DNA of 64,000 nt, taken from assembly GCF_900113305.1 (NCBI RefSeq), contig NZ_FOOW01000007.1:1-64000 (forward strand), given 5' to 3'. Numbering within the stretch: the first letter of the stretch is position 1; every line of letters starts with the position of its first letter. This DNA is from Prevotella sp. KH2C16 (GTDB taxonomy: Bacteria > Bacteroidota > Bacteroidia > Bacteroidales > Bacteroidaceae). A program made the position numbers and the translations under genes. The notes beneath the pieces are model-generated. The model was not told where the DNA came from, did no database searches, and was given only the letters and a program-made list of their open reading frames with translations. Shown here one piece after another: positions 26,283 through 55,513 of the stretch.

Positions 26283-26365
26283 TTACACGCCGTGTGTAAT
26301 CGTGTTACAAGCCGTGTGTAATCGTGTTACAAGCAGCGTGTAATCATGTTACAAGCTGCTTGTAA
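26283..26365. repeat. array A of palindromic 22-bp repeats (4 units)
   Basis: Four units TTACA-N7-TGTAA separated by exactly 5 bp (period 22): starts at 26283, 26305, 26327 and 26349. N7 cores are CGCCGTG, AGCCGTG, AGCAGCG and AGCTGCT. Each unit is a palindrome in its outer 5 bases. The array lies between the convergent PduO and GNAT genes, and its last unit forms the final codons of the GNAT gene. Confidence 0.95.
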
Positions 26366-26867
26366 CTTTCTCGGGAGCCGTGGTCTTCTGGTAGGCCAAC
26401 CGCTCGGTGCCGTCCGTAAGGTAGATGATTCCGCAATAGTGGAACCCGTATTTCAGGATGAGGTGCTGCATGACGGTGTTGTCGCGGTGGGTGTCGATGC
26501 GGATGTTGTCGGTCTGCGTGAAGCAGAAGTCAAGTATGTCGTTGAACGCATGGTGCCTTCCCGGCATGCTTGCCATGCGGTGCACCACATAGTAAGGCTC
26601 CTCGTTGAGCCATTTCCCCTCGTAAATTTTCCTATAAGTGATGTCGGGTCCCGGCACAAAGGCAAATGTCGCTATCGGCATGCCGTCTTCTTCGAGAAGA
26701 TAGCTGTTGCCGATGGCGACATCCTGTAATATCGTTTCGCGCGAAGGCTGACCGTCCGTCCATTGGTGCATGTTTCCGCTCCGGCGCATCTTCTGCCGCC
26801 CGTAGTCGATGAGCTGCAGGATGCGGTAGAGGTCTTCTGCCGTGGCCTTGCGGAACGCCCTTGCCAT
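26349..26867 (-). CDS. GNAT-family N-acetyltransferase
   Basis: A 172-residue GNAT-fold protein: N-terminal RKATAEDLYRILQLID, central beta strands, then NIRIDTHRDNTVMQHLILKYGFHYCGIIYL, the usual end of the acetyl-CoA domain. Substrate unknown; alanine or small-molecule acetylation is possible. The start lies 1 bp after the pheS stop, so it is co-transcribed with pheS. The last codons (encoding V-T-S-S-L and the stop) are formed by the terminal unit of repeat array A, so the C-terminus seems to have been set by the repeat. Confidence 0.8.
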   Translation of the reverse strand: MARAFRKATAEDLYRILQLIDYGRQKMRRSGNMHQWTDGQPSRETILQDVAIGNSYLLEEDGMPIATFAFVPGPDITYRKIYEGKWLNEEPYYVVHRMASMPGRHHAFNDILDFCFTQTDNIRIDTHRDNTVMQHLILKYGFHYCGIIYLTDGTERLAYQKTTAPEKVTSSL

Positions 26868-26868
26868 T

Positions 26869-27906
26869 TTAGCGCGCCGTCTTGAATTCCTCGAGGAACC
26901 GGGTGTCGTTTTCGGAGAACATGCGGAGGTCGCTCACGCGGTATTTCAGGTTGGTGATGCGCTCCACGCCCATGCCGAAGGCATAGCCGGTGTATACCTT
27001 GGAGTCGATGCCGCATGCCTCGAGCACATTCGGGTCGACCATTCCGCAGCCGAGAATCTCCACCCATCCGGTGTGCTTGCAGAACCCGCAGCCCTCTCCG
27101 CCGCAGATGTTGCAGGAGATATCCATCTCCGCACTCGGCTCGGTGAACGGGAAGTAACTGGGGCGCAGGCGGATTTTCGTGTCGGCCCCGAACATTTCAC
27201 GGGCGAAGGTGAGCAATACCTGCTTGAGGTCGGTGAAGCTCACATTCTTGTCGATGTACAGCCCTTCCACCTGGTGGAAGAAGCAGTGGGCGCGCGCCGA
27301 GATGGCCTCGTTGCGGTAGACGCGGCCCGGGCAGATGATGCGCAGCGGCGGCTGGTGGGTCTCCATGTAGTGAGCCTGGTCGCCGGAGGTGTGGCTCCGG
27401 AGGATGATGTTCTTGGTTACATCGTTCGGATTCTGCTCGATGAAGAAGGTGTCCTGCATGTCGCGTGCCGGATGATCTGCCGCGAAGTTGAGCTTGGTGA
27501 AGACATGGAGGTCGTCGTCTACCTCCGGCCCTTCGGCCAGCGTGAAGCCCATGCGGCTGAAAATATCGATAATCTCGTTCTTGACCACGGTGAGCGGATG
27601 GCGTGTGCCCAGCTGGATGGGGTAGGCCGTGCGGGTGAGGTCGAGGTCGTCTTTCTCTTCCTCTGAGATCTCCACCTGTTCCTTCAGCTCATTAATTTTG
27701 CTGAGAGCCGTCTGTTTCAGTTCGTTGATCTTGATTCCCACGGCCTTTTTCTGGTCGGCTGCCACATTGCGGAAGTCGGCCATGAGGGCTGTGATTTCTC
27801 CTTTCTTACTCAGGTATTTCAGGCGCAGTTGCTCTATTTCCTCAGCATTCCTTGCCTGGAGGGCACCCACTTCTTTCAGAAGCTCGTCAATTTTATCCAG
27901 TATCAT
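26869..27906 (-). CDS. pheS: phenylalanyl-tRNA synthetase alpha subunit
   Basis: A 345-residue class II synthetase alpha chain: N-terminal coiled coil (about 1-85), catalytic core with HPLTVVKNEI, FAEGPEVDDD-like segment (FTLAEGPEVDDDLHVF), motif 2 PGRVYRNEAISARAHCFFHQVEGLYID, FFTEPSAEMD-type block (YFPFTEPSAEMDISC) and motif 3 GFAFGMGVERI (here YAFGMGVERITNLKY). It charges tRNA-Phe together with PheT, which is not in the window. An open frame extends to 27936, but the ATG at 27906 (MILDKIDELL) matches the family start. Four cysteines around 240-255 (CNICGGEGCGFC) form a small zinc-like knuckle seen in some PheS. Confidence 0.95.
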   Translation of the reverse strand: MILDKIDELLKEVGALQARNAEEIEQLRLKYLSKKGEITALMADFRNVAADQKKAVGIKINELKQTALSKINELKEQVEISEEEKDDLDLTRTAYPIQLGTRHPLTVVKNEIIDIFSRMGFTLAEGPEVDDDLHVFTKLNFAADHPARDMQDTFFIEQNPNDVTKNIILRSHTSGDQAHYMETHQPPLRIICPGRVYRNEAISARAHCFFHQVEGLYIDKNVSFTDLKQVLLTFAREMFGADTKIRLRPSYFPFTEPSAEMDISCNICGGEGCGFCKHTGWVEILGCGMVDPNVLEACGIDSKVYTGYAFGMGVERITNLKYRVSDLRMFSENDTRFLEEFKTAR

Positions 27907-28033
27907 ATTTTCGATAAAGTTACAATTTTCGTGCAAAGGTAATAATTTTACCGTAAAATAAGAAATATCTCAAAATAAAGTTGTAATTTTGCATAACAAT
28001 TTGAGAGGCAAACAGATATAAAAAAGGCCTAAG

Positions 28034-28888
28034 ATGAAGAAATGTGCTTGGTTTTTCATGGGATTGCTAATCCTCACCATGGTGGGTTTTTCCAGTATAG
28101 GATGTTCCGACAGGAAGCCGGTTGCCACAGACTCCGCGGTGGTAGACTCCGTGGCCGACAGTATTACGACGGACACGCTGGAGACAATGTTAGAGGAACA
28201 GCCGATGCCGAAGGCTGCCGACGAACTGTTTGACGACTTCTTCTTCAATTTCGCGGGCAACCGGAGATTGCAGGTGAAGCGCATCCGGTTTCCCCTTGCC
28301 GTCGTCCGTAACGGCAGGCCGGAGAAGCCTATACAGAAGAAGGGCTGGCAGGTAGACCATTTCTTCATGCGGCAGGAATACTATACGCTCATCTTCGACA
28401 ACCGCAAGCAGATTAATCTGGTAAAGGATACCAGCGTGAACCGTGTTGCCGTGGAGAAGATTTACTTTAAGAGCAAGACCGTGAAGCAGTATCTCTTTGA
28501 CCGGGTAGACGGCCTCTGGATGCTCACGGCCATCCATTACAAGCCTATTTCACAAAACATGAATGCCAGTTTCCTGACATTCTATGATAAATTCAGCTCC
28601 GACTCGACTTTCCAGATAGCGAGCATGAACGACATGGTTACCTTCACCGCTCCTGATCCGGACGACGACTTCAAGAGCATTACGGGCGAAATGGTTCCCG
28701 AGCAGTGGCCGATGTTCAAGCCGGCCATCATTCCTACGGGCGTTATCTACAATATCCTCTATGGGCAGAAATATACCGAGAGCACCCAGAAGATTCTCAT
28801 GGTGCGCGGTATAGCCAATGGTCTGGAGATGGAAATGACATTCCGCAAGAAGGGCGGGGCGTGGAAACTCGTGAAATTCAACAGCTAA
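28034..28888 (+). CDS. DUF4348-like lipoprotein
   Basis: A 284-residue lipoprotein (signal ending SSIGC, Cys24) with an acidic, Ser/Thr/Asp-rich linker and then a domain that I recognise as the Bacteroidales family DUF4348 (FDDFFFNFAGNRRLQVKRIRFPLAV, later DDFKSITGEMVPEQW). Function unknown. A -7 element TAATTTTG (27984-27991) precedes it. The stop codon touches the murB start codon (0 bp gap), so it shares a transcript with murB and the MBL hydrolase; a cell-envelope role is plausible but inferred only from lipidation and neighbours. Confidence 0.75.
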   Translation: MKKCAWFFMGLLILTMVGFSSIGCSDRKPVATDSAVVDSVADSITTDTLETMLEEQPMPKAADELFDDFFFNFAGNRRLQVKRIRFPLAVVRNGRPEKPIQKKGWQVDHFFMRQEYYTLIFDNRKQINLVKDTSVNRVAVEKIYFKSKTVKQYLFDRVDGLWMLTAIHYKPISQNMNASFLTFYDKFSSDSTFQIASMNDMVTFTAPDPDDDFKSITGEMVPEQWPMFKPAIIPTGVIYNILYGQKYTESTQKILMVRGIANGLEMEMTFRKKGGAWKLVKFNS

Positions 28889-29914
28889 ATGAAGGACCTG
28901 AAGTCTTATTCTCTCCTGCGGCACAACACATTCGGCATTGATGCCCGGTGCGACCGATTTCTCGAATACGCATCCGCCGAAGAGGCCGTGGAAATCGTCC
29001 GCGGCCTGAAGGAAACCGACCAGCCCCTGCTCCTGTTGGGGGGAGGGAGCAACCTCTTGCTTACGGGCGACTATCATGGCACTGTGATCACTCCTGAAAA
29101 CCGGTTTGAGGTCGTGGAGTCAGAAGATGCAGACGAGGCTGACGGCATCTATCTGCATTGCTGGGCGGGCACGACTTTCGACGATGTGGTGGCCTATGCC
29201 GTGAAGCAGGGCTATTATGGCATGGAAAACCTCTCGCTTATCCCGGGACAGGTGGGAGCTTCGGCCATTCAGAATATCGGTGCCTACGGGGCTGAAGCCA
29301 AGGATTTCATCGATGAAGTGCGGGCTGTTGAGATTGCAACGGGAAACATGGTCGTCTTCAGCAATGATGATTGCGAGTATAGTTATCGGCAGAGCAAGTT
29401 CAAGCATGCGTGGAAAGACAAGTTTCTCATCGTCCAGGTTACTTATAAACTCTCACGAGCCTTTGTCCCGAAGCTTGACTATGGCAATATCCGCATGAAG
29501 CTCAAGGAGCAGGGGATAGGGCAGCCTACGGCGCAGCAGCTTCGGGATGTGATTATAGAAATCCGCCGGGAGAAGTTGCCCGACCCGCAAATCTTGGGGA
29601 ACGCAGGCAGCTTTTTCATGAATCCTATTGTCTTCCGTGAGAAATACGAGCAGCTGGCGGCGGAATACCCGGGCATGCCCCATTACACCATTGACGGTGA
29701 GCACGAGAAGATTCCGGCAGGCTGGATGATTGAGCAGTGCGGCTGGAAGGGGCGTCCCCTTGGCAAGGCCGGAGTTCATAGCAAGCAGGCATTGATACTG
29801 GTGAACCTCGGAGGTGCCACGGGCACCGATATCTTGAATCTTTGCGAGGCTGTCCGCGCGGATGTGAAGCATAAGTTTGATATAGAGATTTATCCGGAGG
29901 TGAACATCCGATGA
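28889..29914 (+). CDS. murB: UDP-N-acetylmuramate dehydrogenase
   Basis: A 341-residue FAD enzyme that reduces UDP-GlcNAc-enolpyruvate to UDP-MurNAc. FAD-binding region LLLGGGSNLLLT (around 49-60), GMENLSLIPGQVGASAIQNIGAYG (about 111-134) and the catalytic GNAGSFFMNPIV (about 231-242, Ser proton donor) are all present, as is the C-terminal IYPEVNIR. It is a type I MurB with the Tyr loop (EYSYRQSKFK). It begins immediately after the lipoprotein stop and its end overlaps the MBL gene by 4 bp. Confidence 0.95.
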   Translation: MKDLKSYSLLRHNTFGIDARCDRFLEYASAEEAVEIVRGLKETDQPLLLLGGGSNLLLTGDYHGTVITPENRFEVVESEDADEADGIYLHCWAGTTFDDVVAYAVKQGYYGMENLSLIPGQVGASAIQNIGAYGAEAKDFIDEVRAVEIATGNMVVFSNDDCEYSYRQSKFKHAWKDKFLIVQVTYKLSRAFVPKLDYGNIRMKLKEQGIGQPTAQQLRDVIIEIRREKLPDPQILGNAGSFFMNPIVFREKYEQLAAEYPGMPHYTIDGEHEKIPAGWMIEQCGWKGRPLGKAGVHSKQALILVNLGGATGTDILNLCEAVRADVKHKFDIEIYPEVNIR

Positions 29915-30672
29915 CACTTACTTTCCTTGGAACGGGTACTTCGGGGGGCGTCCCGGCGTTGGGATGCCAGTGCGAAGTGTGCCGCAGCAAGAATCCCAAG
30001 GACAAGCGGCTGCGCTCGGCTGCCTTGTTGGAGAGCGGAAACACGCGCGTTCTGATAGATTGCGGCCCTGATATCCGCCAGCAGCTCATGCCGCTGCCTT
30101 TCAAACCGATAGACGGTGTGCTCGTAACCCACATTCATTACGACCATGTCGCGGGGATGGATGACTTGCGTCCATTCTGCGTTTTCGGCGATATTCATGT
30201 CTATGCCAATAAGGCGACGGAGCACGGTTTAAGGCATACGATGCCCTATTGCTTTACCGAGGAACTTTATCCCGGGGTTCCCCGATTGGAGTTGCATGTG
30301 ATTGCGCCTCATAGATCCTTTGCGATTGGCGACTTGGAGATCATGCCGATTCAGGTGATGCACGACAGGCTGCCGATACTCGGTTTCCGTGTCGGGAACT
30401 TTGCCTATATCACCGATATGAAGACTATCGGGGAGACGGAGATGCCCTATCTGGAAGGAGTGGATACCCTTGTGCTGAATGCCTTGCGGTGGGAACGGGA
30501 GCATCACAGCCATATGCTGGTGGGAGAAGCTATCGAGTTTGCTCGCAGGGTGGGGGCTGAATCTACCTATTTTACACACATGACTCATGAGATTGGCTTT
30601 CATGATGATGCTAACCGGCAGCTTCCGGTTGGATTTCAATTCGCTTACGACGGTTTGAAAGTCAATCTGTAA
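29911..30672 (+). CDS. MBL-fold metal-dependent hydrolase (PhnP-like)
   Basis: A 253-residue metallo-beta-lactamase-fold hydrolase. Metal motif THIHYDH (residues 73-79) with a Cys-rich N-terminal loop GCQCEVCRS (18-26) typical of the PhnP/YtvP branch, which hydrolyses cyclic phosphodiesters; other metal ligands are seen at HDRLP (about 151), YITDMK and the C-terminal THMTHEI. The exact substrate is unknown. The ATG overlaps the murB stop (ATGA), the third gene of the lipoprotein-murB-MBL operon. Confidence 0.87.
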   Translation: MTLTFLGTGTSGGVPALGCQCEVCRSKNPKDKRLRSAALLESGNTRVLIDCGPDIRQQLMPLPFKPIDGVLVTHIHYDHVAGMDDLRPFCVFGDIHVYANKATEHGLRHTMPYCFTEELYPGVPRLELHVIAPHRSFAIGDLEIMPIQVMHDRLPILGFRVGNFAYITDMKTIGETEMPYLEGVDTLVLNALRWEREHHSHMLVGEAIEFARRVGAESTYFTHMTHEIGFHDDANRQLPVGFQFAYDGLKVNL

Positions 30673-30761
30673 GTGAATTGATAGAAAAAGGTTAAAAGTG
30701 ATAAAATGGCCATTGTTTTACTTAAACAATGTTATAAGTGTGCGTTCACACATTTAAAAAT

Positions 30762-30791
30762 TTGCATATTCCTATTTTATGTTTAAATTTG
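30762..30791 (+). promoter_or_regulatory. orphan promoter upstream of a terminator
   Basis: TTG (30762-30764) and TAAATTTG (30784-30791) with a 19-bp spacer match the Bacteroidetes consensus closely. There is no protein gene downstream on the plus strand; the next features are a terminator at 30834 and a structured region, so a short non-coding transcript is likely. Confidence 0.65.
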
Positions 30792-30796
30792 CAGTG

Positions 30797-30860
30797 TGTT
30801 TTTCATAGTATTAGATTTAAGGTTAACAAGGTAGGGACTCAGCGGAGTCCCATTTTTTTA
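30797..30860 (+). ncRNA. candidate small RNA, about 60 nt
   Basis: The interval begins at the expected start site of the 30762-30791 promoter and ends at a terminator, GGGACTC-AGCG-GAGTCCC (30834-30851) followed by A and seven T's. It has no open frame of note. It may be an independent small RNA, or the first hairpin may be an attenuator in front of the structured region at 30899-31004. Existence is predicted only from sequence. Confidence 0.45.
30834..30859 (+). terminator. rho-independent terminator
   Basis: Perfect 7-bp stem (30834-30840 with 30845-30851), tetraloop AGCG, then ATTTTTTT. It lies 162 bp after the MBL gene stop, so it could also end the murB operon. Confidence 0.88.
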
Positions 30861-30898
30861 TATCCTGACTTTTACCTTGGGGATATCACGGAGGCTGG

Positions 30899-31004
30899 GA
30901 GTTGTGGCGGCAAGGTATGCCTTCAGAAAGGCATGCAAACAACTCTGTCCATTTGACAGGTGCTTGCCGCTAACGGGCATAGCTCAGACTTGTCAAATGA
31001 ACAG
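30899..31004. other. highly structured intergenic region, candidate ncRNA of unknown strand
   Basis: No coding frame. Nested hairpin 1: GAGTTGT (30899-30905) with ACAACTC (30939-30945), enclosing ATGCCTT (30917-30923) with AAGGCAT (30928-30934), loop CAGA. Hairpin 2: a 17-nt arm at 30945-30961 pairs with 30988-31004 with only two non-Watson-Crick positions. GCGGCAAG (30907-30914) in hairpin 1 is an exact complement of CTTGCCGC (30963-30970) in the loop of hairpin 2, a possible pseudoknot. It resembles no RNA family that I can name. A weak hairpin followed by a T-rich tract at 31014-31045 could end a plus-strand transcript. Confidence 0.5.
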
Positions 31005-31028
31005 AATAGGGGGAAGACAGTCTAAAAA

Positions 31029-31310
31029 CTATCTTTTCTTTTTCTTTGTATTGAAAAGTTGTTTTCCGCTGAATTTATGGTAGAGTTTCCATCCCAGGAT
31101 GACGGCATCTAAAATCCCGGCTCCCGTGTTCATCAATGTGTTGAATCGTTTTGACGGGGTCAGGGCGGCCGTTGGTTCCGGTTTATGGAACAGTTCTTTC
31201 CACATGGAGCGAATCTGCTCGTCGTCTTTGCGAATGTCTTTCAGGAGCATCTCCTTCCTGAGATGTATGTCAGAAAGTGAACGATAGGTTGATAAGTCGT
31301 CAGTATTCAT
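31029..31310 (-). CDS. small hypothetical protein, last gene of a membrane-protein operon
   Basis: A 93-residue mainly helical protein with a basic tail ending FNTKKKKR and one moderately hydrophobic stretch (about residues 62-80, TLMNTGAGILDAVILGWKLYHKF). I do not recognise the family. It starts 4 bp after the holin-like gene and closes a three-gene operon with a YtxH-type protein, whose members are often induced together as small envelope or stress proteins. Function unknown. Confidence 0.65.
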   Translation of the reverse strand: MNTDDLSTYRSLSDIHLRKEMLLKDIRKDDEQIRSMWKELFHKPEPTAALTPSKRFNTLMNTGAGILDAVILGWKLYHKFSGKQLFNTKKKKR

Positions 31311-31314
31311 AGGC

Positions 31315-31665
31315 TTATTTCTCCATTAAAAGACTCGCCAGGAAATGCACGAGCGGGCGCTCTATCCATCTATGGCGGAAAATGACACACAATATCAGCA
31401 CCAGCAGATACACTCCTCCGACAACGCAGAAAGCCCAGGGCAGGCCCATGCTGGGCTCGAGTGCATAAGCCAGGGCGAACGAGAAGTAGATAAGGGTAAG
31501 CATCAGCAAGACCGAGATGACAACGGTAATCGTGGCCACGGTGAGCAGGCGCACGACCTTTTCTGCCATATCGAGCTTCACATATTCGCTTTGAAGGCCG
31601 ATATAGTGCTTGAGCACTTCGACAAGCTGCCCTATCGTTTCTATGTTTCTGTCGTTCGAGAACAT
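31315..31665 (-). CDS. phage-holin-superfamily membrane protein (Holin-X-like)
   Basis: A 116-residue protein with an N-terminal helix and two hydrophobic segments (about residues 43-68 and 75-97), the layout of the putative holin-X (Pfam Phage_holin_3_6) family. Despite the family name there is no sign of phage around it; in Bacteroidetes such proteins are chromosomal and commonly neighbour YtxH proteins, as here. Function unknown, probably envelope-related. Confidence 0.75.
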   Translation of the reverse strand: MFSNDRNIETIGQLVEVLKHYIGLQSEYVKLDMAEKVVRLLTVATITVVISVLLMLTLIYFSFALAYALEPSMGLPWAFCVVGGVYLLVLILCVIFRHRWIERPLVHFLASLLMEK

Positions 31666-31673
31666 CTGTGCGA

Positions 31674-31892: not shown

Positions 31893-31954
31893 AACCAAAT
31901 AATTTATTAAATAGTTTAACATTCTTCGTCCGGCTGGCGGACGATATTCACTCG

Positions 31955-31984
31955 CAAATATAAGAAAAGAAATGAGAACGGCAA
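31955..31984 (-). promoter_or_regulatory. promoter of the YtxH-holin operon
   Basis: Read on the minus strand: TTG (31984-31982), 19-bp spacer, TATATTTG (31962-31955). The 5' leader contains a small hairpin, CGTCCG-GCTGG-CGGACG (31927-31943). Confidence 0.75.
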
Positions 31985-32057
31985 TGAAAACGGTAGCCAT
32001 TTTTTGTTAAATAGTTTCTATTTTGTTGATTTAACAAACTTTATGCGCCATTTTCGC

Positions 32058-32630: not shown

Positions 32631-32633
32631 CTG

Positions 32634-33669: not shown

Positions 33670-35661
33670 ATGCGCCGGCATATCATAGTTTTCCTGGTGT
33701 CGTTGCTCAGCCTCCCCGGATTCTCCCAGTACAATACCGACAGGCTGCTGACCAGTGGGGAGGTGGCTCTCCACTATGAGGACTATGTGTTGTCGATTCA
33801 GTATTTCAATCAGGTCATAGCCCTGAAGCCCTATCTTTACCAGCCTTGGTATTACCGTTCCGTGGCGAAGTTCTATTTAGAAGACTTCGTAGGAGCGGAA
33901 AACGATGCCACACAGGCCATCCGCATTAATCCCTATATTGACCAGATTTATGATCTGAGGGCTATTTCCCGTATCCGGCAAGAGAAGTATAGTGATGCCA
34001 TTGACGACTACGGGCAGGCCATCCGGCTGAATCCTGGCCAGCGCAACTTTTGGTTTAACCGCGTCATCTGTCGTATGAACACGAAGGACTACAGGCAGGC
34101 TCATCTCGATGTAGACACGATCGTCGCCCGTTGGAGCCAGTTCGCCAACGCCTATTCCCTCAACGCGGAGGTCTATCTGCACGAGAAAGACACTACAGAA
34201 GCGGTAAAATGGCTTGACAAAAGCCTGGAACTCGACCCTTACGACGGGAATGCGTGGACTACGCGAGCCTATATCAGCCTGTCGCGAAGGCAGTGGAGGG
34301 AGGCCGACAAGTATCTCAGCGAGGCCATCCACCTGAAGCCCAAGACCGTGGGAAACTATGTCAACCGCGCCCTGGCTCGCTACAACTACAACAATCTGCG
34401 CGGAGCGATGGCGGACTATGATACTGCCATCGACCTCGACCCCAACAATTTCCTCGCCCACTATAACCGCGGCCAGCTGCGCATGCAGCTCGGAGACGAC
34501 AACCGGGCCATCAGCGACTTCGACTTCATCATCCGCATGGAGCCCAAGAACTTCATGGCCATCTTCAACCGGGCTCTCCTCAACGACCGCACGGGCAACC
34601 TGCGCGACGCCATACGCGACTATACCACGGTCATCGACCAGTTTCCCAACTTCTGGACAGGCCTCTCTTATCGTGCCAACGCCTATCGGCGGCTGGGCAT
34701 GACGGCCAAGGCCGAACTCGACGAGTTCCGCATCTTCAAGGCCCAGATGAACAAACACCAGGGCATACAGCCGCGATGGAGCAAGGGAAAGCGTAAGGAT
34801 GTGCGCAAGCGCAGTGAGATTGACCCGGAGAAATACAATCAACTCGTGCAGGAAGACGAGAACGAAGTGGAGCATGAATACAAGAGTGCCTACCGCGGAC
34901 AGATACAGAACCGCGCCGTCGAGGTGGCCTTCATGCCCCTCTACGGCCTTTCCTACTTCCAGTATAACAACGGCGTGAAGTCCTATCAGGCCTTCGACCC
35001 CGAGGTGGAGGAGTTCAACCGCACGGAGAACTCGCGGGAGAAGCTCTATGTGAACTGCAACCCCGTGCAGCTCGACGAGGCTCAGTCTACGGCCTTTTTC
35101 CAGCTGATAGACAGCCTTTCCGCACGGATAGAGGCCACGAAAGGTGTCGACAAGGCGAAAGGGTTGCTTATTCGCCGTGCCGTTGCCTACGGCACGGTGC
35201 AGGACTTTGACGCAGCCATCAGCGACCTGACGGCCTATATTCACCTCGACAGCATTTCTGCCATGGGCTATTGGGAGCGTGCCGTGTGCCAGATTATGAT
35301 GAACAACTTCAACGCTTCACATGGAATAGATATCGAAATAAAGATGATGAAGGCGCGAGACGACCTCGACCGCGCCGTGAAGCTCAGTCCCAAGAATGCC
35401 TATCTGTATTATGACCGTGGCAATCTTCATGCCGTCCGTAAGGAATATGCCAATGCCATCGATGACTATACGAAGGCGATAGAACTCGACGGGAAGCTGG
35501 CCGAAGCCTATTATAACCGCGGTCTTGCTCGCTATTATAACGGCGACAGGGCGGGTGGAGTGCACGACTTGAGCCGTGCCGGAGAGCTTGGCGTCTATAA
35601 CTCCTACAGCGTTATCAAGCAGTTTAACAAAGAGAAAGGCCTGGCTGCTGATAATCGTTAA
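33670..35661 (+). CDS. secreted TPR-repeat protein
   Basis: A 663-residue protein with signal peptide (MRRHIIVFLVSLLSLPGFSQ) and many tetratricopeptide repeats: a first block at about residues 20-360 (units such as YDLRAISRIRQEKYSDAIDDYGQAI) and a second near 520-655 (YYDRGNLHAVRKEYANAIDDYTKAI), separated by a charged non-TPR segment with KGKRKDVRKRSE. A protein-interaction role in the periplasm is likely; partner unknown. The open frame reaches 33631, but the ATG at 33670 starts the signal peptide. Its last 109 bp (35553-35661) are duplicated at 37115-37223. Confidence 0.9.
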   Translation: MRRHIIVFLVSLLSLPGFSQYNTDRLLTSGEVALHYEDYVLSIQYFNQVIALKPYLYQPWYYRSVAKFYLEDFVGAENDATQAIRINPYIDQIYDLRAISRIRQEKYSDAIDDYGQAIRLNPGQRNFWFNRVICRMNTKDYRQAHLDVDTIVARWSQFANAYSLNAEVYLHEKDTTEAVKWLDKSLELDPYDGNAWTTRAYISLSRRQWREADKYLSEAIHLKPKTVGNYVNRALARYNYNNLRGAMADYDTAIDLDPNNFLAHYNRGQLRMQLGDDNRAISDFDFIIRMEPKNFMAIFNRALLNDRTGNLRDAIRDYTTVIDQFPNFWTGLSYRANAYRRLGMTAKAELDEFRIFKAQMNKHQGIQPRWSKGKRKDVRKRSEIDPEKYNQLVQEDENEVEHEYKSAYRGQIQNRAVEVAFMPLYGLSYFQYNNGVKSYQAFDPEVEEFNRTENSREKLYVNCNPVQLDEAQSTAFFQLIDSLSARIEATKGVDKAKGLLIRRAVAYGTVQDFDAAISDLTAYIHLDSISAMGYWERAVCQIMMNNFNASHGIDIEIKMMKARDDLDRAVKLSPKNAYLYYDRGNLHAVRKEYANAIDDYTKAIELDGKLAEAYYNRGLARYYNGDRAGGVHDLSRAGELGVYNSYSVIKQFNKEKGLAADNR

Positions 35662-35717
35662 AACCGCCCGTATGTATTTCTGCGTCTGTATTTAGATAAG
35701 TCTGATTTATCTTCTGT

Positions 35718-36995
35718 TTATTCTCCGTGGTAGGTGCCGATGTAGCAGATAGCCCCAAAGGGGTCGTATATCAAATAGACGAACGGCCGGTTGGCTTCGA
35801 AATAGGCGATATTCTCCTCTTTTGCTATGACCAGCGAGAGTTCCGCAAACTCCGTGCCGGTAACCGATTCGGCCGTTGTTCCCCATTCATCCACCTTGAT
35901 TTTGGTTTGCTGCTGTATCTTGTTTATCTTTAAGGGCTTGTCGCTGATGTTTACCAGCTCGGCATCATCGCCGAAAGCTTTGTGCATGCCCAGTTGCCGT
36001 AGCGGCTCTTTGAGCGACATGTCGGTTGCTGCCTCAAACTTAGGGATGGATATATGCACCTCTTCATAGGTCTTTAGCTTTCCTTGTGCAGCGCGCAGTT
36101 CTTCCATGGACAGCCGATCTATGAAGGCCCGGAGGTCGACAAGGCTGTCCGGCAAGATGATTTGCATGTTGAATCCACCGGTGTAATGCGTGTTCAGAAG
36201 GCTGAAGTTTGCGTGTTTGCAGACGCTGCTATACTTCTCTTTGTCTATCTTGCTCATCATGCTTACCTTGCTGCTCGTACCTTCGTAGAACGGTTTCGGC
36301 CTTGCCTCTGAGAATTCTTCCGGCCATACGCCGGCGAAGTTGTTGGCATTTACGAGCAGTAATTTCGTGTCCCGGTCAACTTTCAGGGGCATGCGGGGAA
36401 TCATGCCCGCCGTCTGTTCATTGCACCAATCGTCAAGCCTCTTCTGCATTTCTTCGTCAAATCTGCCCTCTATGACTCCTGCAAAATAGTCTTGCTCCAT
36501 CTTTGCCCGGTAATCTTCCTTGAAATAGTCGCTGCCTTCCGTGGCAATTATATTTGCACTTTTCAGGTAAGAACGATTCATGAAGACAGAGCCCACGCTT
36601 ACCTGCGGACTGTCTATGGCCAGGGAGAGCATCTGCCGGTGGGCAAACTTGTTGAACGCTTCTATCTCCTTTTCGCTGATGCCCAGCGCCTTGCATATTT
36701 CCCCGCGAGTTTCCCCCGTTGCCCCGGTAGCAGTCATGTTGAGCAGATATAATGCTCCCAGGGGCGAATATACCTGGTTTTTGCCGTCCTTGCCTGCCGC
36801 GAGTTGCCGGAAGAGGCGCAGTGAGAAGTCGTTTTCCTTGTTTATCAGCAGCTTCTCCGCCTTGCTCAAATCGTAGTCCGGCACCATGCTTCTTGCAGCC
36901 TCGGTGAGCGTCTTTTGTTCACTACAAGCCGTCAGGAGCGCTGCCGTTACTCCGCAAAGCATTGCCAGGCCCCAAGATATAAGTGTTCTTTTCAT
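35718..36995 (-). CDS. serpin-family serine protease inhibitor, lipoprotein
   Basis: A 425-residue serpin. Lipoprotein signal ends ALLTAC (Cys24); the serpin fold is clear from NDFSLRLFRQL, VYSPLGALYLLNMTATGATGET, NANNFAGVW and the C-terminal NRPFVYLIYDPFGAICYIG. The hinge DEWGTTAESVTGTEFAE (about 375-391) is less Ala-rich than the EEGTEAAAAT of good inhibitors, so inhibition is likely but not certain; the cleavage site lies in the following LSLVIAKEENIAYF. Serpins trap host or bacterial proteases. The gene is flanked by 109-bp direct repeats of the TPR gene end. A -7 element TATATTTG is at 37042-37035. Confidence 0.92.
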   Translation of the reverse strand: MKRTLISWGLAMLCGVTAALLTACSEQKTLTEAARSMVPDYDLSKAEKLLINKENDFSLRLFRQLAAGKDGKNQVYSPLGALYLLNMTATGATGETRGEICKALGISEKEIEAFNKFAHRQMLSLAIDSPQVSVGSVFMNRSYLKSANIIATEGSDYFKEDYRAKMEQDYFAGVIEGRFDEEMQKRLDDWCNEQTAGMIPRMPLKVDRDTKLLLVNANNFAGVWPEEFSEARPKPFYEGTSSKVSMMSKIDKEKYSSVCKHANFSLLNTHYTGGFNMQIILPDSLVDLRAFIDRLSMEELRAAQGKLKTYEEVHISIPKFEAATDMSLKEPLRQLGMHKAFGDDAELVNISDKPLKINKIQQQTKIKVDEWGTTAESVTGTEFAELSLVIAKEENIAYFEANRPFVYLIYDPFGAICYIGTYHGE

Positions 36996-37114
36996 ATTAA
37001 TATTGTTTACGGTTGCCGATTCTCAGTTATCTCGCAAATATAATATATTTTCTCGGAAACCATGGACATTCACCGTGATTTCTTTCTCTGCCTCTTCTTC
37101 TTTTCTTGAAAAAC

Positions 37115-37223
37115 GGGTGGAGTGCGCGACCTGAGCCGTGCCGGAGAGCTCGGCATCTACAACTCCTACAGCGTTATCAAGCAGTTTAACAAGGAGAAAG
37201 GCCCGGCTGCCGGTGGTCGTTAG
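37115..37223 (+). pseudogene. duplicated 3' end of the TPR gene
   Basis: These 109 bp match 35553-35661, the last 109 bp of the TPR gene including the stop, without gaps; I count 12 differences (about 89% identity), all of them transitions. The frame is still open and encodes the C-terminal DLSRAGELG...YNSYSVIKQFNKEKG, but no start or upstream TPR sequence is present. It is a remnant that brackets the serpin gene together with the intact TPR gene. The rest of the gap up to 37467 holds repeat array B and then nothing clear. Confidence 0.9.
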
Positions 37224-37294: not shown

Positions 37295-37355
37295 TTACAA
37301 GCGGCGTGTAACGCGATTACACGCCGTTTGTAACACGATTACACACGGCTTGTAG
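37295..37355. repeat. array B of palindromic 22-bp repeats (3 units)
   Basis: Three units TTACA-N7-TGTAA/G at 37295, 37317 and 37339 with 5-bp spacers (period 22). Cores: AGCGGCG, CGCCGTT, CACGGCT. Unit 2 is the reverse complement of unit 1 with one mismatch. It lies 72 bp after the TPR remnant. Confidence 0.95.
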
Positions 37356-50217: not shown

Positions 50218-50291
50218 AAGCGGCAACCGCCCGCACGGGCAAAAAACATCATAGAAAAGAAAACAAAACCCTTTAAGCTAAAAACATAAAC

Positions 50292-51452
50292 ATGTCTAAA
50301 GTAAACAAGTTCGCCATCATACCGGTCATGCTCTGCTTCTTCTGCATGGGCTTCGTAGACCTGGTAGGCAGTGCCTCCAACTATGTGAAGGAAGACCTGG
50401 CGCTCACCAATGCCGAGGCCAACATCTTCCCGTCGCTCGTCTTTTTCTGGTTCTTGATCTTCTCCGTGCCCACGGGCATGCTGATGAACAAGATCGGGCG
50501 CAAGAAGACCGTGTTGCTCAGTCTCCTCGTTACAGTGGTCTCCCTCATTCCTCCCATCTTCGGCGAGTCCTATCTCGTGATGCTGATATCCTTCTCGTTG
50601 CTGGGCATCGGCAACGCCCTGATGCAGACTTCGCTCAACCCGCTGGTGGCCACGGTCTTGAAGGGCGGCAACCTCGCGTCTACGCTCACCTTCGGGCAGT
50701 TCGTCAAGGCCATCGCCTCTATCTCGGCTCCCACCATCTTCAGCTGGGGCTTCGCCGCCGCCATTCCCACCCTGGGACTTAGCTGGCGCATCCTTTTCCC
50801 CATCTTCGCGGTGATAGGCACGCTGTCCACGCTGTGGCTGCTCGCCACGCCTATCGAGGAGAAGCCTGCCCAGGGCAAGCCCAGCACCTTCATAGAGTGC
50901 TTCAAGCTGATGGGCATGCCTATCGTGCTGCTCAGCTTCCTCGGCATCATGTGCCATGTGGGAATCGATGTGGGCACCAACACCACGGCTCCCCGCATCC
51001 TCATGGAGCGGCTGAATGTGTCGGTGGGCGACGCCACCTTTGCCACCACGCTCTACTTCATCTTCCGCACCATAGGCTGTCTTACGGGCTCGTTCTTCCT
51101 GCGCGTGATGAACAACAAGGTGTTCTTCATCATTTCTGTCTCCATGATGGCGCTCTCCATGGTCGGCCTTTCGGTAGGAACCACCAAGGCGGTGCTCTAC
51201 ACGGCCATAGCCCTCGTCGGTTACGGCAACAGCAATGTTTTCTCCATGGTCTTTGCCCGTGCCTTGCAGAGCGTGCCTGAGAAGCAGAACGAGGTGAGCG
51301 GACTCATGATTATGGGTCTCTTCGGCGGCACCGTGTTCCCGCTGATCATGGGCCGGGTGAGCGACCTCATGGGGCAGATGGGTGCCGTGCTGGTCATGGC
51401 CGTCGGCGTAATCTATCTTTTCAGCTATATTCCACGAATGAACAAAAAATAA
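50292..51452 (+). CDS. MFS sugar permease, probable fructose importer
   Basis: A 386-residue major facilitator protein with 12 hydrophobic segments; NKIGRKKTVL after helix 2 is the MFS loop motif. It resembles the fucose/glucose-galactose permease branch. In the Bacteroides levan locus the equivalent gene (BT1758) imports fructose across the inner membrane; the same position here, between the periplasmic GH32 and fructokinase, supports that role. 74 bp after the GH32 gene and 9 bp before the kinase gene. Confidence 0.9.
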   Translation: MSKVNKFAIIPVMLCFFCMGFVDLVGSASNYVKEDLALTNAEANIFPSLVFFWFLIFSVPTGMLMNKIGRKKTVLLSLLVTVVSLIPPIFGESYLVMLISFSLLGIGNALMQTSLNPLVATVLKGGNLASTLTFGQFVKAIASISAPTIFSWGFAAAIPTLGLSWRILFPIFAVIGTLSTLWLLATPIEEKPAQGKPSTFIECFKLMGMPIVLLSFLGIMCHVGIDVGTNTTAPRILMERLNVSVGDATFATTLYFIFRTIGCLTGSFFLRVMNNKVFFIISVSMMALSMVGLSVGTTKAVLYTAIALVGYGNSNVFSMVFARALQSVPEKQNEVSGLMIMGLFGGTVFPLIMGRVSDLMGQMGAVLVMAVGVIYLFSYIPRMNKK

Positions 51453-51461
51453 AGAATCACT

Positions 51462-52343
51462 ATGAAACATGTAATTGTAGGCCTCGGCGAAGCGTTGTGG
51501 GACTGTCTTCCCGAAGGCAAGAAACTTGGTGGAGCACCCGCAAACTTTGCCTACCATGCCGGCCAGTTCGGTCATGACACCTACGCAATCAGTGCCGTCG
51601 GCACCGACGCCTTGGGCGACGAGACGCTGGCCGCCTTCGATAGCAAGCAGGTAAAGTATATCATGCCGCGCGTAGACTATCCCACGGGCACCGTGCAAGT
51701 GGAGCTCGACGCGCAGGGCGTGCCTACCTATGAAATCAAGGAAGGCGTGGCATGGGACCACATTCCCTTCACGCCCGAGATAGAAAATGCGGCAAAGAAC
51801 TGCCGTGCCGTGTGCTTCGGCTCGCTTGCCCAGCGCAGCAGCGTGAGCAAGCAGACCATCCACCGCTTTCTGGATGCCACTCCGAAGGACTGTCTGAAGA
51901 TATTCGACATCAACCTCAGGCAGAATTTCTATACGCGGGAGGTCATCTGCGACTCGATGAGACAGTGCAACATCCTCAAGATCAACGACGAGGAGCTGGT
52001 GTCCATCGGGCGCATGTTTGGCTATCCGGGACTCGACATGGAGAACAAGTGCTGGCTCCTTCTGGGCAAGTATAATCTCGACATGCTCGTGCTCACCTGC
52101 GGCGTCAACGGCTCTTATGTCTTCGCGCCGAACATGAAGACCTTCCAGGAAACGCCCAAGGTGGAGGTTGCCGACACCGTGGGTGCGGGCGACTCTTTCA
52201 CCGGAGCCTTCGCCTCGGCCATCCTTGCCGGCATGCCCATCCCCGATGCCCACAAGCTGGCAGTGGATGTGAGTGCCTTCGTGTGCACGCAGAGCGGTGC
52301 GATGCCGCGGCTTCCCAAGAAGTTGACGGATAGGATAAAGTAA
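51462..52343 (+). CDS. PfkB-family fructokinase
   Basis: A 293-residue ribokinase-fold sugar kinase. GEALWDCLPEGKKLGGAPANFAYHAG (9-34) is the sugar-binding N-terminal signature and DTVGAGDSFTGAF (238-250, catalytic base Asp244) the PfkB signature 2. It phosphorylates fructose released by the GH32 enzymes; the matching gene in B. thetaiotaomicron is BT1757. Last gene of the fructan locus. Normal length. Confidence 0.93.
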   Translation: MKHVIVGLGEALWDCLPEGKKLGGAPANFAYHAGQFGHDTYAISAVGTDALGDETLAAFDSKQVKYIMPRVDYPTGTVQVELDAQGVPTYEIKEGVAWDHIPFTPEIENAAKNCRAVCFGSLAQRSSVSKQTIHRFLDATPKDCLKIFDINLRQNFYTREVICDSMRQCNILKINDEELVSIGRMFGYPGLDMENKCWLLLGKYNLDMLVLTCGVNGSYVFAPNMKTFQETPKVEVADTVGAGDSFTGAFASAILAGMPIPDAHKLAVDVSAFVCTQSGAMPRLPKKLTDRIK

Positions 52344-52398
52344 TTCTTCTTTTAAAACGCCGCTTCTGGCGGCAATCGGTAATCTTTTTATAGTGTCC

Positions 52399-52432
52399 GC
52401 CCCGTGTCAAACAAGTTTTGATGCGGGGCTTT
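52399..52432. terminator. possible terminator after the fructan locus
   Basis: GCCCCG (52399-52404) pairs with CGGGGC (52424-52429), with an inner stem TCAAA/TTTGA; a short TTT follows on the plus strand. Weak T-tract, so moderate confidence. It overlaps the end of the small frame on the minus strand. Confidence 0.5.
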
Positions 52433-52559
52433 CCTGCTTCTCGGCGGTAGGATTTCCCTCTTTGCGCAGTCTTCTTTGCACAGCCTTGAACAGCATAGGA
52501 TTGCCCACGGGGTGGAGGATTGTTTCGAAAATCCGTCCTGATAGCAGGCGGCGAGGCAT
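52407..52559 (-). CDS. possible small protein, 50 residues
   Basis: An open frame of 50 codons, basic (MPRRLLSGRIFETILHPVGN at the start, then FKAVQRRLRKEG), beginning 9 bp after the stop of the PorT-like gene and in the same frame. It could be a small downstream gene, or a former C-terminal extension of that gene separated by a stop codon. I recognise no family. Low confidence that it is expressed. The rest of 52344-52568 shows only the hairpin at 52399-52429. Confidence 0.3.
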   Translation of the reverse strand: MPRRLLSGRIFETILHPVGNPMLFKAVQRRLRKEGNPTAEKQESPASKLV

Positions 52560-52568
52560 TGAGAAGGA

Positions 52569-53222
52569 TTAGTAATTGCCGTCGGAGGCAGGCATGTAAT
52601 ACTTTGTCTTGGGCCGCTCATCTTTCATTTTACCTAAAGAGAAGCGGTAGCCAAGCGTGATGGAGGCCACTTGGTTAACCACGGGGTCTGCGTCGGCCTT
52701 GATGAGTGAGGTGCCAATCACATAGCGGGCATCCAGTACCACATGCTTGTATTCATATGACACACCCACCGGAATGCCCAGAGTGATTTTGCTCACTGTA
52801 GCCTTGTCAATATTCTTATCTGTGAGATTGAAGCCCGGTTGAAGGCCAGCCTTGATGATAAGTCCTTCCACGGGTTGAACGCCCAGCAGTACGGGGATAT
52901 TTAGATAGTCTACTTGAGCAGCCTTGCGACCATCCTTGAAGTTGCACCCCTGTTGGCTGTAGTATAGCCCGATGTCCATCAGGAGCGGGCGGGCAAGTTC
53001 TATTTCGAGGTCGCAGCCTATCAGCAGCCCGGCCTTCATCTTGGTTTCCAGCGGAGCTGTTTCCGCCGCTCCTGATCCTGCAGCCGACCCGTATACATGT
53101 TTGAGGTCGGCTATGTTCACGCCGATGCGCGGAATTAGGGATACTCGTTTGTCTCTCAGTTGTGCCTGCAGGTGGATGGAAGCCGTCAGCATGACAACGA
53201 TAAGTAGGATTTGCCTTTTCAT
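52569..53222 (-). CDS. PorT-like outer-membrane beta-barrel protein
   Basis: A 217-residue protein with signal peptide (1-20, ending LQAQ) and a small beta-barrel pattern of alternating residues: VSLIPRIGVNIADLK, KAGLLIGCDLEIEL, MDIGLYYSQQGCNF, YLNIPVLLGV, LIIKAGLQPGFNL and the C-terminal SITLGYRFSLG, as in the PorT/OmpA-like barrel family of Bacteroidetes. A polar 20-residue tail follows the last strand. Function unknown. A -7 element TACCTTTG is at 53267-53260. It lies between the fructan locus and thrS, convergent with the former. Confidence 0.82.
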   Translation of the reverse strand: MKRQILLIVVMLTASIHLQAQLRDKRVSLIPRIGVNIADLKHVYGSAAGSGAAETAPLETKMKAGLLIGCDLEIELARPLLMDIGLYYSQQGCNFKDGRKAAQVDYLNIPVLLGVQPVEGLIIKAGLQPGFNLTDKNIDKATVSKITLGIPVGVSYEYKHVVLDARYVIGTSLIKADADPVVNQVASITLGYRFSLGKMKDERPKTKYYMPASDGNY

Positions 53223-53411
53223 ATTGTCCGAATTGTGATGGTTGTTGCTTAAGTAGATACAAAGGTATCGATTAATTCCCGATTCCCATCAGGATTTCCG
53301 GGGAAAATCTTCGTGCGGAATAAAAAATGTGGAATTATTCACGGAAAATAGCCTTTGTCTCGACAGAAAGTGTTATTTTTGCATTTGATTAGAATTAAAC
53401 TACTTTGTATT

Positions 53412-55364
53412 ATGGTTAAAATCACTTTTCCTGATGGCTCTGTTCGTGAGTACGAAGAGGGCGTAACGGGGTTACAAATCGCCGAGAGCCTCTCGCCGGC
53501 TCTCGCCCGCGCCGTTGTATCGTGCGGTGTCAATGGCGAGACGGTAGAGCTCAACCGTCCCATCGTGAAGGATTCCACCATCGCCCTCTATAAGTTTGAG
53601 GACGAGGAGGGCAAGCACACCTTCTGGCACACCAGCGCCCATTTGCTGGCAGAGGCTCTTCAGGAGCTTTACCCCGGCATCCAGTTCGGGTTCGGCCCAG
53701 CCATTGAGAACGGCTTCTTCTACGATGTAATGCCGCCCGCAGGGACGACGATTTCCGAGAACGACTTCCCCAAGATTGAGGAGAAAATGCGCGAGCTGGC
53801 CAAGAAAGACGAGCCCGTGGTGAGAAAGGATGTGTCCAAGGCCGACGCCCTGAAGGAGTTTGAGGCCGACGGACAGGAGTATAAGTGCGAGCACATAGCC
53901 CAGGACTTGGAGGACGGAACGATTTCCACCTACACGCAGGGCAACTTCACCGACCTCTGCCGGGGTCCTCACCTCATGTCGACGGGCGAGATCAAGGCGA
54001 TCAAGATTACCTCTGTGGCCGGAGCCTTCTGGCGCGGAGACGCCAAGCGCGAGCAGATGACGCGCATCTACGGCATCACCTTCCCCAAGAAGAAGATGCT
54101 CGACGAGTATCTCGTGATGCTCGAGGAGGCCAAGAAACGCGACCATCGCAAGATAGGCAAGGAGATGGAACTCTTCATGTTCTCCGACCGCGTGGGCAAG
54201 GGAATGCCCATCTGGCTGCCCAAGGGAACGGCACTGCGCCTGCGCTTGCAGGACTTGTTGCGCAAGATGCTGAAGCCTTATAATTATCAGGAGGTTATCA
54301 CCCCGGGCATCGGAGGCAAGAGCCTCTATGTTACCAGCGGGCATTATGCCCACTATTCGAAGGACGCTTTCCAGCCCATCCACACGCCCGAGGAGGATGA
54401 GGAGTATATGCTCAAGCCCATGAACTGTCCCCATCACTGCGAGATCTACGCCCGCAAGCCTCGCTCCTACAAGGATCTGCCGCTGCGCATTGCCGAGTTC
54501 GGCACGGTGTTCCGCTACGAGAAGAGCGGCGAGCTGCACGGACTGACCCGTGTGCGCAACTTCACGCAGGACGATGCTCATATCTTCGTGCGTCCGGAAC
54601 AGGTGAAACAGGAGTTTGAGAATGTAATCGACATCATCCAGAAAGTGTTCACCATCTTCGGCTTCGACAACTACGAGGCTCAGATTTCGCTGCGCGACCC
54701 TGCCGACAAGGAGAAGTATATCGGTTCCGACGAGACCTGGGAGGAGAGCGAGAACGCCATCCGGGAGGCCTGCAGGGAAAAGGGAATGAACGCCCGCGAG
54801 GAGATCGGAGAGGCTGCCTTCTATGGTCCGAAGCTCGACTTCATGGTGAAGGATGCCATCGGTCGCCGCTGGCAGCTGGGCACGATACAGGTGGACTACA
54901 ACCTGCCGCAGCGCTTCAAGCTTGAGTATACCGCCGAGGACAACTCCAAGCAGACGCCGGTGATGATTCACCGTGCCCCCTTCGGCTCTCTCGAGCGCTT
55001 CACCGCCGTGCTCATCGAGCACACGGCAGGTCATTTCCCGCTCTGGCTTACGCCCGACCAGGTGGCCATCCTGCCCATCTCGGAGAAGTATAACGACTAT
55101 GCGGTCGAGGTTTGCAAATATCTCGACAGCCGCGATGTGCGTGCCTTCGTGGACGACCGCAACGAGAAGATAGGGCGCAAGATACGCGACAACGAGCTCA
55201 AGCGCGTGCCTTACATGGTCGTCGTGGGGGAGAAGGAGGCTGCCGAAGGTCTTGTCAGCATGCGCAAGCAGGGCGGAGGCGAGCAGTCTACGATGAAGAT
55301 GGAAGACTTTGCCCAGCGTATCAACGGCGAGGTGGCCGAGCAACTGAAGCTCGCCGAAGAATAA
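53412..55364 (+). CDS. thrS: threonyl-tRNA synthetase
   Basis: A 650-residue class II synthetase in full domain order: TGS domain (1-60, [19 protein letters not shown]), editing domain with [11 protein letters not shown] (zinc/editing HxxxH, about 75) and later C-rich segment, catalytic core with [10 protein letters not shown] (zinc Cys/His), motif 2 [26 protein letters not shown], motif 3 [11 protein letters not shown], then the anticodon-binding domain ([12 protein letters not shown] onward). An open frame begins at 53355, but the ATG at 53412 matches the family. A -7 box TATTTTTG is at 53374-53381. Confidence 0.97.
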
Positions 55365-55382
55365 CTATTATCCCTTTATACG

Positions 55383-55422
55383 ATAAGCCCCGGCAGGCTC
55401 TCATGGAGCTGCCGGGGCTTAT
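55383..55422 (+). terminator. terminator after thrS
   Basis: Perfect 14-bp stem: ATAAGCCCCGGCAG (55383-55396) with CTGCCGGGGCTTAT (55409-55422). Only a short T-tract (TTATTCT), but a very stable hairpin 18 bp after the stop codon. Confidence 0.82.
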
Positions 55423-55452
55423 TCTGTGTGCGGCTTGCTGCTGCGGGGAATG

Positions 55453-55513
55453 TTACAAGCAGCGTGTAATGTTGTTACACGCTGCTTGTAACGGCATTAC
55501 ACGCCGTGTGTAA
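55453..55513. repeat. array C of palindromic 22-bp repeats (3 units)
   Basis: Three TTACA-N7-TGTAA units at 55453, 55475 and 55497, 5-bp spacers (period 22). Cores: AGCAGCG, CGCTGCT, CGCCGTG. Unit 2 is the exact 17-bp reverse complement of unit 1. The array ends 2 bp before the stop codon of the convergent gene on the minus strand. Confidence 0.95.

Follow-up and report, generated by a model that had tools for sequence, protein, structure and literature searches.

Phased 22-bp repeat arrays in Prevotella as candidate register anchors of a putative DNA-wrapping assembly

What do short palindromic repeats do when they recur at an exact period between the genes of a bacterial chromosome? The question is raised by three intergenic arrays in a 64,000-bp stretch of Prevotella sp. 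KH2C16 (contig NZ_FOOW01000007.1 of assembly GCF_900113305.1, positions 1 to 64,000; hereafter the window). An initial annotation had described them as 17-bp units of the form TTACA-N7-TGTAA separated by 5-bp spacers, and had left their nature between BIME-like elements (bacterial interspersed mosaic elements), protein-binding arrays and transcript-end structures. The described build was borne out. Array A (26283-26365) consists of four units, at 26283, 26305, 26327 and 26349, with a period of exactly 22 bp; array B (37295-37355) has units at 37295, 37317 and 37339, the third with one mismatch (TGTAG); array C (55453-55513) has units at 55453, 55475 and 55497. The three together contain 9 exact units and 1 single-mismatch unit, all with 5-bp spacers. 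The pattern occurs 10 times in the window against 0.05 expected; one of the 10 is a lone match inside a gene at position 15305. Because the arrays stand in phase with an 11-bp G+C lattice that extends for kilobases, and larger length differences between KH2C16 and a related genome are mostly multiples of 22 bp, we read them as likely register anchors of a putative DNA-wrapping protein assembly with a 22-bp repeat, a reading to which we assign a probability of about 0.5. All array, flank and lattice coordinates are unstranded.

The arrays belong to a genome-wide family. The KH2C16 genome (3.22 Mb, 58 contigs) contains 163 units against 5 for a reversed-pattern control, and 100 tandem pairs with the exact 5-bp spacer against 0, so the pattern is far above chance frequency. 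The window and 49 further array-centred stretches gave 52 arrays with 151 exact units, plus two lone units, a census that is nearly, not wholly, complete. The family is therefore not restricted to three places, and 22 bp is its dominant period. With degenerate units included, 33 arrays have three units, 15 have four, two have five and two have two. The commonest unit form is TTACA-MRC-N-GYK-TGTAA; among 302 half-sites, TTACAAGC was counted 123 times, TTACACGC 81, TTACACAC 61 and TTACAAAC 19. A second arm type, TTACC-N7-GGTAA, is mixed into five arrays (L150, L160, L162, L163 and L164) with the 22-bp frame kept, and TTACTC/GAGTAA half-sites were seen at L165 and L236.

The order continues outside the units. 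All 104 flanks of the 52 arrays were aligned on the array edge, with right flanks reverse-complemented and pooled (for array A, 26223-26282 on the left and 26366-26425 on the right). In KH2C16, an RYNRY motif, mostly GCNGC, recurs at -16, -38, -60 and -82 in step with the unit cores, weakening outward, and an edge motif of the GCNGCTTNCNGNAATR type precedes TTACA. In Prevotella sp. oral taxon 376 F0043 (hereafter F0043), RYNRY at successive in-phase flank positions reaches 0.60, 0.47, 0.29 and 0.28, compared with ~0.045 out of phase. The flank signal fades by 22-bp steps, and the aligned flanks showed no common sharp end such as the terminal inverted repeats of miniature inverted-repeat transposable elements (MITEs) would give.

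At larger scale, the G+C content of the whole window (1-64000, genes included) oscillates with a period of 10.991 bp, the strongest line between 3.2 and 60 bp. Anchored on arrays, the 11.0-bp oscillation runs to 1.87 kb through coding regions in both KH2C16 and F0043; pooled power at 11.0 bp over -660 to -110 was 41.8, against a mean of 1.2 and a maximum of 5.9 for jittered anchors. In 23 arrays with 46 flanks of at most 9.8 kb, the anchored amplitude is 0.032 close to the array, 0.021 at 1-2 kb and 0.011 at 2-3 kb, and it reaches noise beyond ~6 kb. Local unanchored power is 1.86 within 1 kb and 1.2-1.6 farther away (control, 0.87-1.04). Since local power is alike at all distances while the anchored amplitude falls, the lattice is genome-wide and its register is lost over a few kilobases. 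The unanchored G+C autocorrelation of KH2C16 is coherent to a lag of 5.5 kb; reshuffling 300-bp pieces abolished the long-range signal (z from 18.9 to between -1.3 and -0.1), and masking the arrays with 300 bp on either side left it in place (z 21.2). By site class, the lattice measures 42e-4 in intergenic DNA (standard error 4.8e-4) and 31.5e-4, 11.6e-4 and 2.9e-4 at codon positions 3, 1 and 2, respectively (standard error 1.6e-4 each). Shuffling of synonymous codons lowered its z from 27.7 to 7.6-9.5, and KH2C16 has genome-wide ~11-bp periodicity at silent sites. A weaker, 22-bp component accompanies it in the purine signal of KH2C16 (z 8.1), F0043 (6.7), the metagenome-assembled genome (MAG) JALCDQ (5.2) and P. 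histicola (5.6).

The lattice was also detected at 10.98-10.99 bp in P. histicola (32 kb, z 36.9), the MAGs JALCDQ (z 29.4) and JAGAPR (z 21.8), and genome G148 (z 6.3). A genome of the same genus without any TTACA match, G195, has a lattice at 10.91 bp (z 35.0) with a coherence of about 1-2 kb, and weak lattices were seen in CAMWVS (z 3.7) and CAJONO (z 4.2). No lattice above background (z 2-4, best of 301 periods) was found in genomes G010 and G087, in seven genomes of other families examined one by one, or in 100 kb of E. coli.

Mirroring of flanks restricts the pooled phase of a continuous lattice to 0 or half a period. Because mirroring forces such a two-value phase, the locking test was redone with one unmirrored phase per array, taking each site once and the G+C phase from 130-1000 bp on either side, and our claims rest on this version. 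Array by array, the lattice is phase-locked in four species: KH2C16 (50 arrays, R 0.79, G+C maximum -0.15 bp from the unit dyad, p 2.6e-14), F0043 (40 arrays, R 0.68, offset -0.44 bp, p 8.2e-9), JALCDQ (11 arrays, R 0.91, offset 0.01 bp, p 1.2e-4) and P. histicola (4 arrays, R 0.92, offset -0.34 bp, p 0.035). Jittered anchors gave R 0.06. The pooled mirrored profiles also place the maximum of G+C at the unit dyad in KH2C16, F0043, JALCDQ, JAGAPR and P. histicola; G148 agrees at an amplitude of 1.5 standard errors and CAMWVS disagrees. The autocorrelation amplitude (~22e-4) corresponds to a site amplitude of ~0.033, equal to the anchored one, which indicates near-full locking close to arrays. 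The annotation's remark that 22 bp is close to two helical turns and would place all units on one face of the DNA proved the correct lead.

The KH2C16 genome carries a second, unrelated array class, CAAAATCGSCGATTTTG, also with a 22-bp period. Its one copy in the window (12850-12913, AAAATCGSCGATTTTGTC units) has three AAAATCGSCGATTTT-type dyads at 12858, 12880 and 12902 and is located downstream of an Omp85-family gene; this stretch matches at least 40 distinct places in F0043 (40 of 132 candidates scored). The phase test for this class covered KH2C16 sites, as the F0043 stretches used contained none. The 11 sites are phase-locked in the unmirrored test (R 0.70, offset -0.79 bp, p 0.005). Taken on both strands, the same 11 sites gave mirrored amplitudes of 0.038 +/- 0.008 at 110-440 bp, 0.013 +/- 0.007 at 440-990 bp and 0.029 +/- 0.007 at 990-1490 bp.

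Comparison of KH2C16 with F0043, over 131 kb of ungapped blocks, yielded 48 junctions. The net offset was zero at 6 of them, 1 bp at 19, -2 and 3 bp at one each, and 5 bp or more at 21. With blocks of at least 40 bp, 18 of these 21 larger differences fell no more than 1 bp from a multiple of 22 (2.9 expected, p 2.3e-13). Blocks of at least 250 bp on both sides were then demanded, because short blocks may align array to array and give multiples of 22 trivially; all nine remaining differences (-308, -44, -44, -22, 22, 44, 66, 440 and 507) still came this close to a multiple of 22 (p 1.6e-8). The +440 difference spans a complete, non-repetitive open reading frame (ORF; L321, ~12445), S23-type four-helix-like by eye, and the +507 difference a non-repetitive ORF (L185, ~1596) that resembles a DUF559 nuclease by eye; both are absent at the F0043 place. 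One high-scoring segment pair (HSP) of 14,355 bp differs in length by 1 bp. Alignment coordinates gave three further cases, 286 = 13 x 22 (short block), 660 = 30 x 22 and, from short blocks, the serpin insert described below (1562 = 71 x 22); a short-block case adjoining that insert gave 15,367 bp = 1397 x 11, an odd multiple of 11. Offsets taken from array edges (42 of 51 zero, the other 9 no more than 1 from a multiple of 11) were not relied on, as an edge can shift by a unit.

Controls showed no such quantisation. Three overlapping comparisons of E. coli strains had 0 of 5 differences near multiples of 22 and 3 of 5 near multiples of 11. The Prevotella pairs L067-L121, L070-L080 and L055-L080 had 0 of 5 near 22n and 1 near 11n; the lattice check covered the genomes of L070, L080 and L121, which showed none in 16-24 kb. 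The best 60 of 346 other locus pairs came mostly from distant species but also took in some repeats within the G195 genome and two F0043 loci; of their 91 differences, 7 were near 22n and 21 near 11n, as by chance.

The arrays are conserved between the two genomes. An orthologous KH2C16 array was found for 29 of 40 distinct F0043 arrays examined, a share biased upward in that the KH2C16 stretches had been picked for holding arrays. A script working on flanking DNA paired 30; two ambiguous pairs to L188 were dropped and array C (F0043 ortholog L092) was added. The pair formed by array A and its three-unit ortholog at F0043 locus L124 stands outside the 29. In 18 pairs of equal unit number, 560 of 570 arm positions are identical (98%, somewhat inflated because pairing requires at least one exact unit per species), as are 304 of 399 core and 123 of 195 spacer positions (63%), with flanks at 64-76%. 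The fastest-changing positions are the unit centre (51%) and the spacer middle (46-54%). No clean empty site was obtained for an F0043-only array, the matching KH2C16 locus being rearranged.

A pattern scan of 84,980 species genomes gave at least 88 stretches, nearly all from Prevotella or Bacteroidaceae among the matches listed; these included P. histicola, P. veroralis, P. ruminicola KHT3 and F0043, and their core sequences vary between species. When up to 2 mismatches are allowed, the pattern is present in 12 of 100 genomes of the genus, KH2C16 included, in two of them as a single two-mismatch match; with 0 mismatches, the pattern is present in 0 of 120 other genomes of the family; among 60 genomes of the phylum, KH2C16 matches and two others have one weak match each. 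A sequence-independent self-similarity scan over lags 12-45 found lag 22 dominant in G195 (20 arrays in 460 kb) and in G010 (13 arrays in 200 kb), which belongs to another genus of the family. The palindromes of both are quite unlike the TTACA units, so the 22-bp period reaches wider than the TTACA sequence. G087 had 2 lag-22 arrays (119 kb scanned) and other families of the class had 1 (201 kb); other classes (123 kb) and E. coli (100 kb) had none. G195 (L251-L274) carries several array sequences, GCGAAGATTGC/GCATTCTTCGC, AAAGTACGTACTTT and others. In G148 (L190-L195), self-similarity at lags 16, 24, 32 and 40 besides 22 reflects an 8-bp repeat family.

Gene limits were taken from a simple hexamer gene caller. 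By this measure convergent genes flank 28 of the 52 arrays, tandem genes 16 and divergent genes 5, and 3 arrays fall within a called ORF. The convergent setting accounts for 28 of 49 intergenic arrays; among 223 other adjacent gene pairs of these stretches, 16 are convergent. At least one called gene 3' end adjoins 44 of the 52 arrays. Of the three window arrays, all said to sit at gene 3' ends, two do so: A has a cobalamin adenosyltransferase gene (+) on one side and an unnamed ORF (-) on the other, and C lies between thrS (+) and a DUF6078 gene (-). The statement fails for B, which separates the called 5' ends of a serpin gene (-) and a hybrid two-component gene (+).

Several readings compete with that of register anchors. 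The arrays had been thought able to form long hairpins or cruciforms, with neighbouring units as reverse complements. Reverse complementarity is real for C (exact) and B (one mismatch) and does not hold as a general rule: the inverted core match of neighbouring units averages 4.07 of 7 against 4.35 +/- 0.13 for random pairs. Among the 151 units, complementary pairs are depleted at core positions 6/12 (46 against 69 +/- 6 expected) and 7/11 (71 against 88 +/- 5), and unlike half-sites are preferred inside one unit. A hairpin or cruciform is therefore not supported as the selected feature; the cores do not covary as in a palindrome, perfect palindromes are avoided, and left and right flanks do not pair beyond consensus (0.357 against 0.362 shuffled). 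The same depletion argues against transcript-end hairpins or terminators, an explanation that we consider extremely improbable even with called 3' ends adjoining so many arrays: a scan for G+C-rich hairpins followed by a T-run flagged nothing that the units of the three window arrays would build (one weak minus-strand site lies beside A), and none of the four Rfam matches in the window falls at an array. A G+C-rich hairpin separate from the units precedes array C; it was read by eye and is unflagged by the scan. Selfish or neutral repeats akin to repetitive extragenic palindromes (REPs) or MITEs, spread to gene ends by some transposase, with a lattice of other cause and survival of in-register insertions only, would fit the scattered distribution, the species-specific sequences, the leaning towards convergent gene ends, which tolerate insertions, and the one Y1 transposase of F0043. 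We find this unlikely. The Y1 transposase of REP-associated systems (RAYT; Y1_Tnp, PF01797) has 0 matches in the KH2C16 genome, which speaks against BIME membership, in a search where 5 of 14 control genomes were positive; of ten further genomes it is absent in 6 and present in 4, F0043 included. In addition, no sharp outer boundary was seen at the array edges, and position and arms are conserved while flanks diverge. A viral origin was also looked into; the one AT-rich match in a viral collection is probably due to chance.

Two further explanations take the lattice itself as their starting point. The arrays could be strong wrap sites for gyrase or another topoisomerase, functional counterparts of E. 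coli BIME-2 between converging genes, with the lattice as the same enzyme's genome-wide preference. Positive supercoils would gather between converging genes, where arrays are over-represented, and the E. coli gyrase motif is symmetric, 130 bp long and phased in G/C at 10.75 bp, with BIME-2 elements as gyrase sites (PMC6379681). The Prevotella lattice, however, is coherent for kilobases rather than 130 bp and does not show the 130-bp, 10.75-bp signature; it has a 22-bp component; the arrays have strict 5-mer arms that differ between species and between the classes of one genome; and 11 of the 17 placeable lag-22 arrays in G195 lie between tandem genes. A gyrase origin thus appears quite unlikely to us. 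We regard as less probable still a mutational imprint, in which a bound filament would shield one helix face, mutation spectra would vary every 11 bp and arrays would fix the binding place. It agrees with a lattice strongest at the least constrained sites, but leaves the larger 22n length differences unexplained; moreover, a published study has argued for selection of the weaker periodicity of genomes on the ground that it increases with codon selection (Atzinger and Lawrence, 2020; PMC7537859).

A number of observations weigh against the anchor reading itself. Phase locking did not reach significance in JAGAPR (5 arrays, p 0.39), G148 (6, p 0.59) or CAMWVS (7, p 0.38); RYNRY phasing is not clear in 6 arrays of G148 (at -16) or 4 of G172; and G195 lacks the 22-bp purine component. 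Neighbouring arrays are not spaced at multiples of 11 (R 0.37, n 11, p 0.23), so register is lost within a few kilobases. The array-bearing genomes ONAK (24 kb), DXCV (29 kb) and G172 (22 kb) have no detectable lattice in those lengths, and G010 (L275-L284) has many 22-bp arrays without a lattice, which means that arrays do not require one. The quantisation of length rests on one species pair, KH2C16 and F0043. One of its nine long-block differences (-22, at L227) coincides with a change in unit number (8 of 8 qualify after its removal), and several differences of 22-66 bp beside arrays could reflect gain or loss of units. An insertion of 4988 bp (HSP coordinates) fits neither 11 nor 22; gapped alignments show no quantisation of raw gap length, most gaps being small and compensated; and differences of a single base, frequent at 19 of 48 junctions, are tolerated by the register. 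The upward bias in the share of conserved arrays counts here as well, and an all-against-all comparison of ORFs beside arrays revealed no recurring gene family and no candidate binding partner.

If arrays are register anchors, a protein would read them with one dimer per 17-bp unit, neighbours touching every 22 bp. The assembly would nucleate at the arrays and extend outward as a wrap or filament with a weaker sequence preference, for G+C at the phase of the unit dyad and for AA/TT about half a turn off. Upkeep of the register would shape silent sites and reject length changes other than whole lattice units. An array would then be a phasing mark for continuous wrapping, like a nucleosome-phasing element and unlike a terminator or operator. 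Of the options first offered, protein-binding arrays is the one that survives, with binding itself still putative; the interpretation in the initial annotation is, as a whole, partly supported. A bolder proposal is offered tentatively, and we would not quite bet on it: that chromosomes of a group of Prevotella are register-locked, with a continuous 22-bp lattice, laid down in silent sites and intergenic DNA, that wraps on a protein scaffold, arrays as species-specific register marks, and insertions and deletions (indels) that, single bases apart, come essentially in whole 22-bp units even for whole genes.

Other features of the window were recorded alongside the arrays. Just before array B, 80 bp of the 3' end of a TPR gene are duplicated. 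The serpin insert (35557-37198, unstranded) holds the serpin gene (35718-36995, minus strand) between the two copies (35557-35636 and 37119-37198), which are offset by 1562 bp = 71 x 22; the matching F0043 place is without the serpin. A cobalamin riboswitch (Rfam; 20384-20566) stands at the start of a block of about 5 kb, reaching ~25.7 kb, which the matching F0043 place lacks, and another Rfam match (30796-30863) is to FopS, a Bacteroidetes family of paralogous small RNAs.

A faint 10-11 bp rhythm of bacterial genomes has been known for decades, its binding partner and purpose unresolved. Here the rhythm is strong, coherent over kilobases and linked to definite DNA sites that could serve as bait, and it is apparently strong enough to filter which larger insertions survive. 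The old question of how bacterial chromosomes are folded, one about bacterial chromatin, would thereby become testable; if the reading is true, genomes of abundant oral and gut bacteria are under a new constraint on gene uptake.

We found no description of such arrays, phase locking or quantised indels in the open-access literature searched, which leaves out most subscription papers. REP and BIME elements with RAYT are likewise dispersed short palindromes with arrays at gene ends; the Prevotella arrays differ in the missing Y1 transposase of KH2C16, the avoided core palindromy, the 17-bp units at exactly 22 bp and the lattice phase. In eukaryotic nucleosome phasing elements, a sequence-specific site sets the wrapping register for kilobases; the register in Prevotella is helical (11/22 bp), not nucleosomal. 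The BrickBuilt MITE of Porphyromonas gingivalis, from a related family, has intergenic 23-nt tandem repeats, with 22-nt direct repeats in strain W83, and a leader, a tail and IS5-type terminal inverted repeats (PMC4596501); in the Prevotella arrays no sharp end was seen. The E. coli gyrase motif and BIME-2 share symmetric phased G/C, explained by wrapping, and intergenic repeats; that motif spans 130 bp at 10.75 bp and is without fixed arms, whereas here kilobases are covered at 10.99 and 22 bp (PMC6379681). The closest likeness is with genomic 10-11 bp periodicity, including the cyanobacterial AT2 signal, which is also ~11 bp, chromosome-wide, present at silent sites and without a known partner (PMC7537859; PMC4132750). 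In E. coli, local periodic regions of at least 1 kb have been described, and compensatory indels were foreseen there without a test (PMC7537859). The silence of 100 kb of E. coli by our G+C statistic is not directly comparable with that work, which measures dinucleotide spacing over whole genomes. The Prevotella signal differs from this periodicity in that it keeps its phase over 2-5 kb, includes a component of 22 bp, is locked to arrays of specific sequence and comes with quantised larger length differences.

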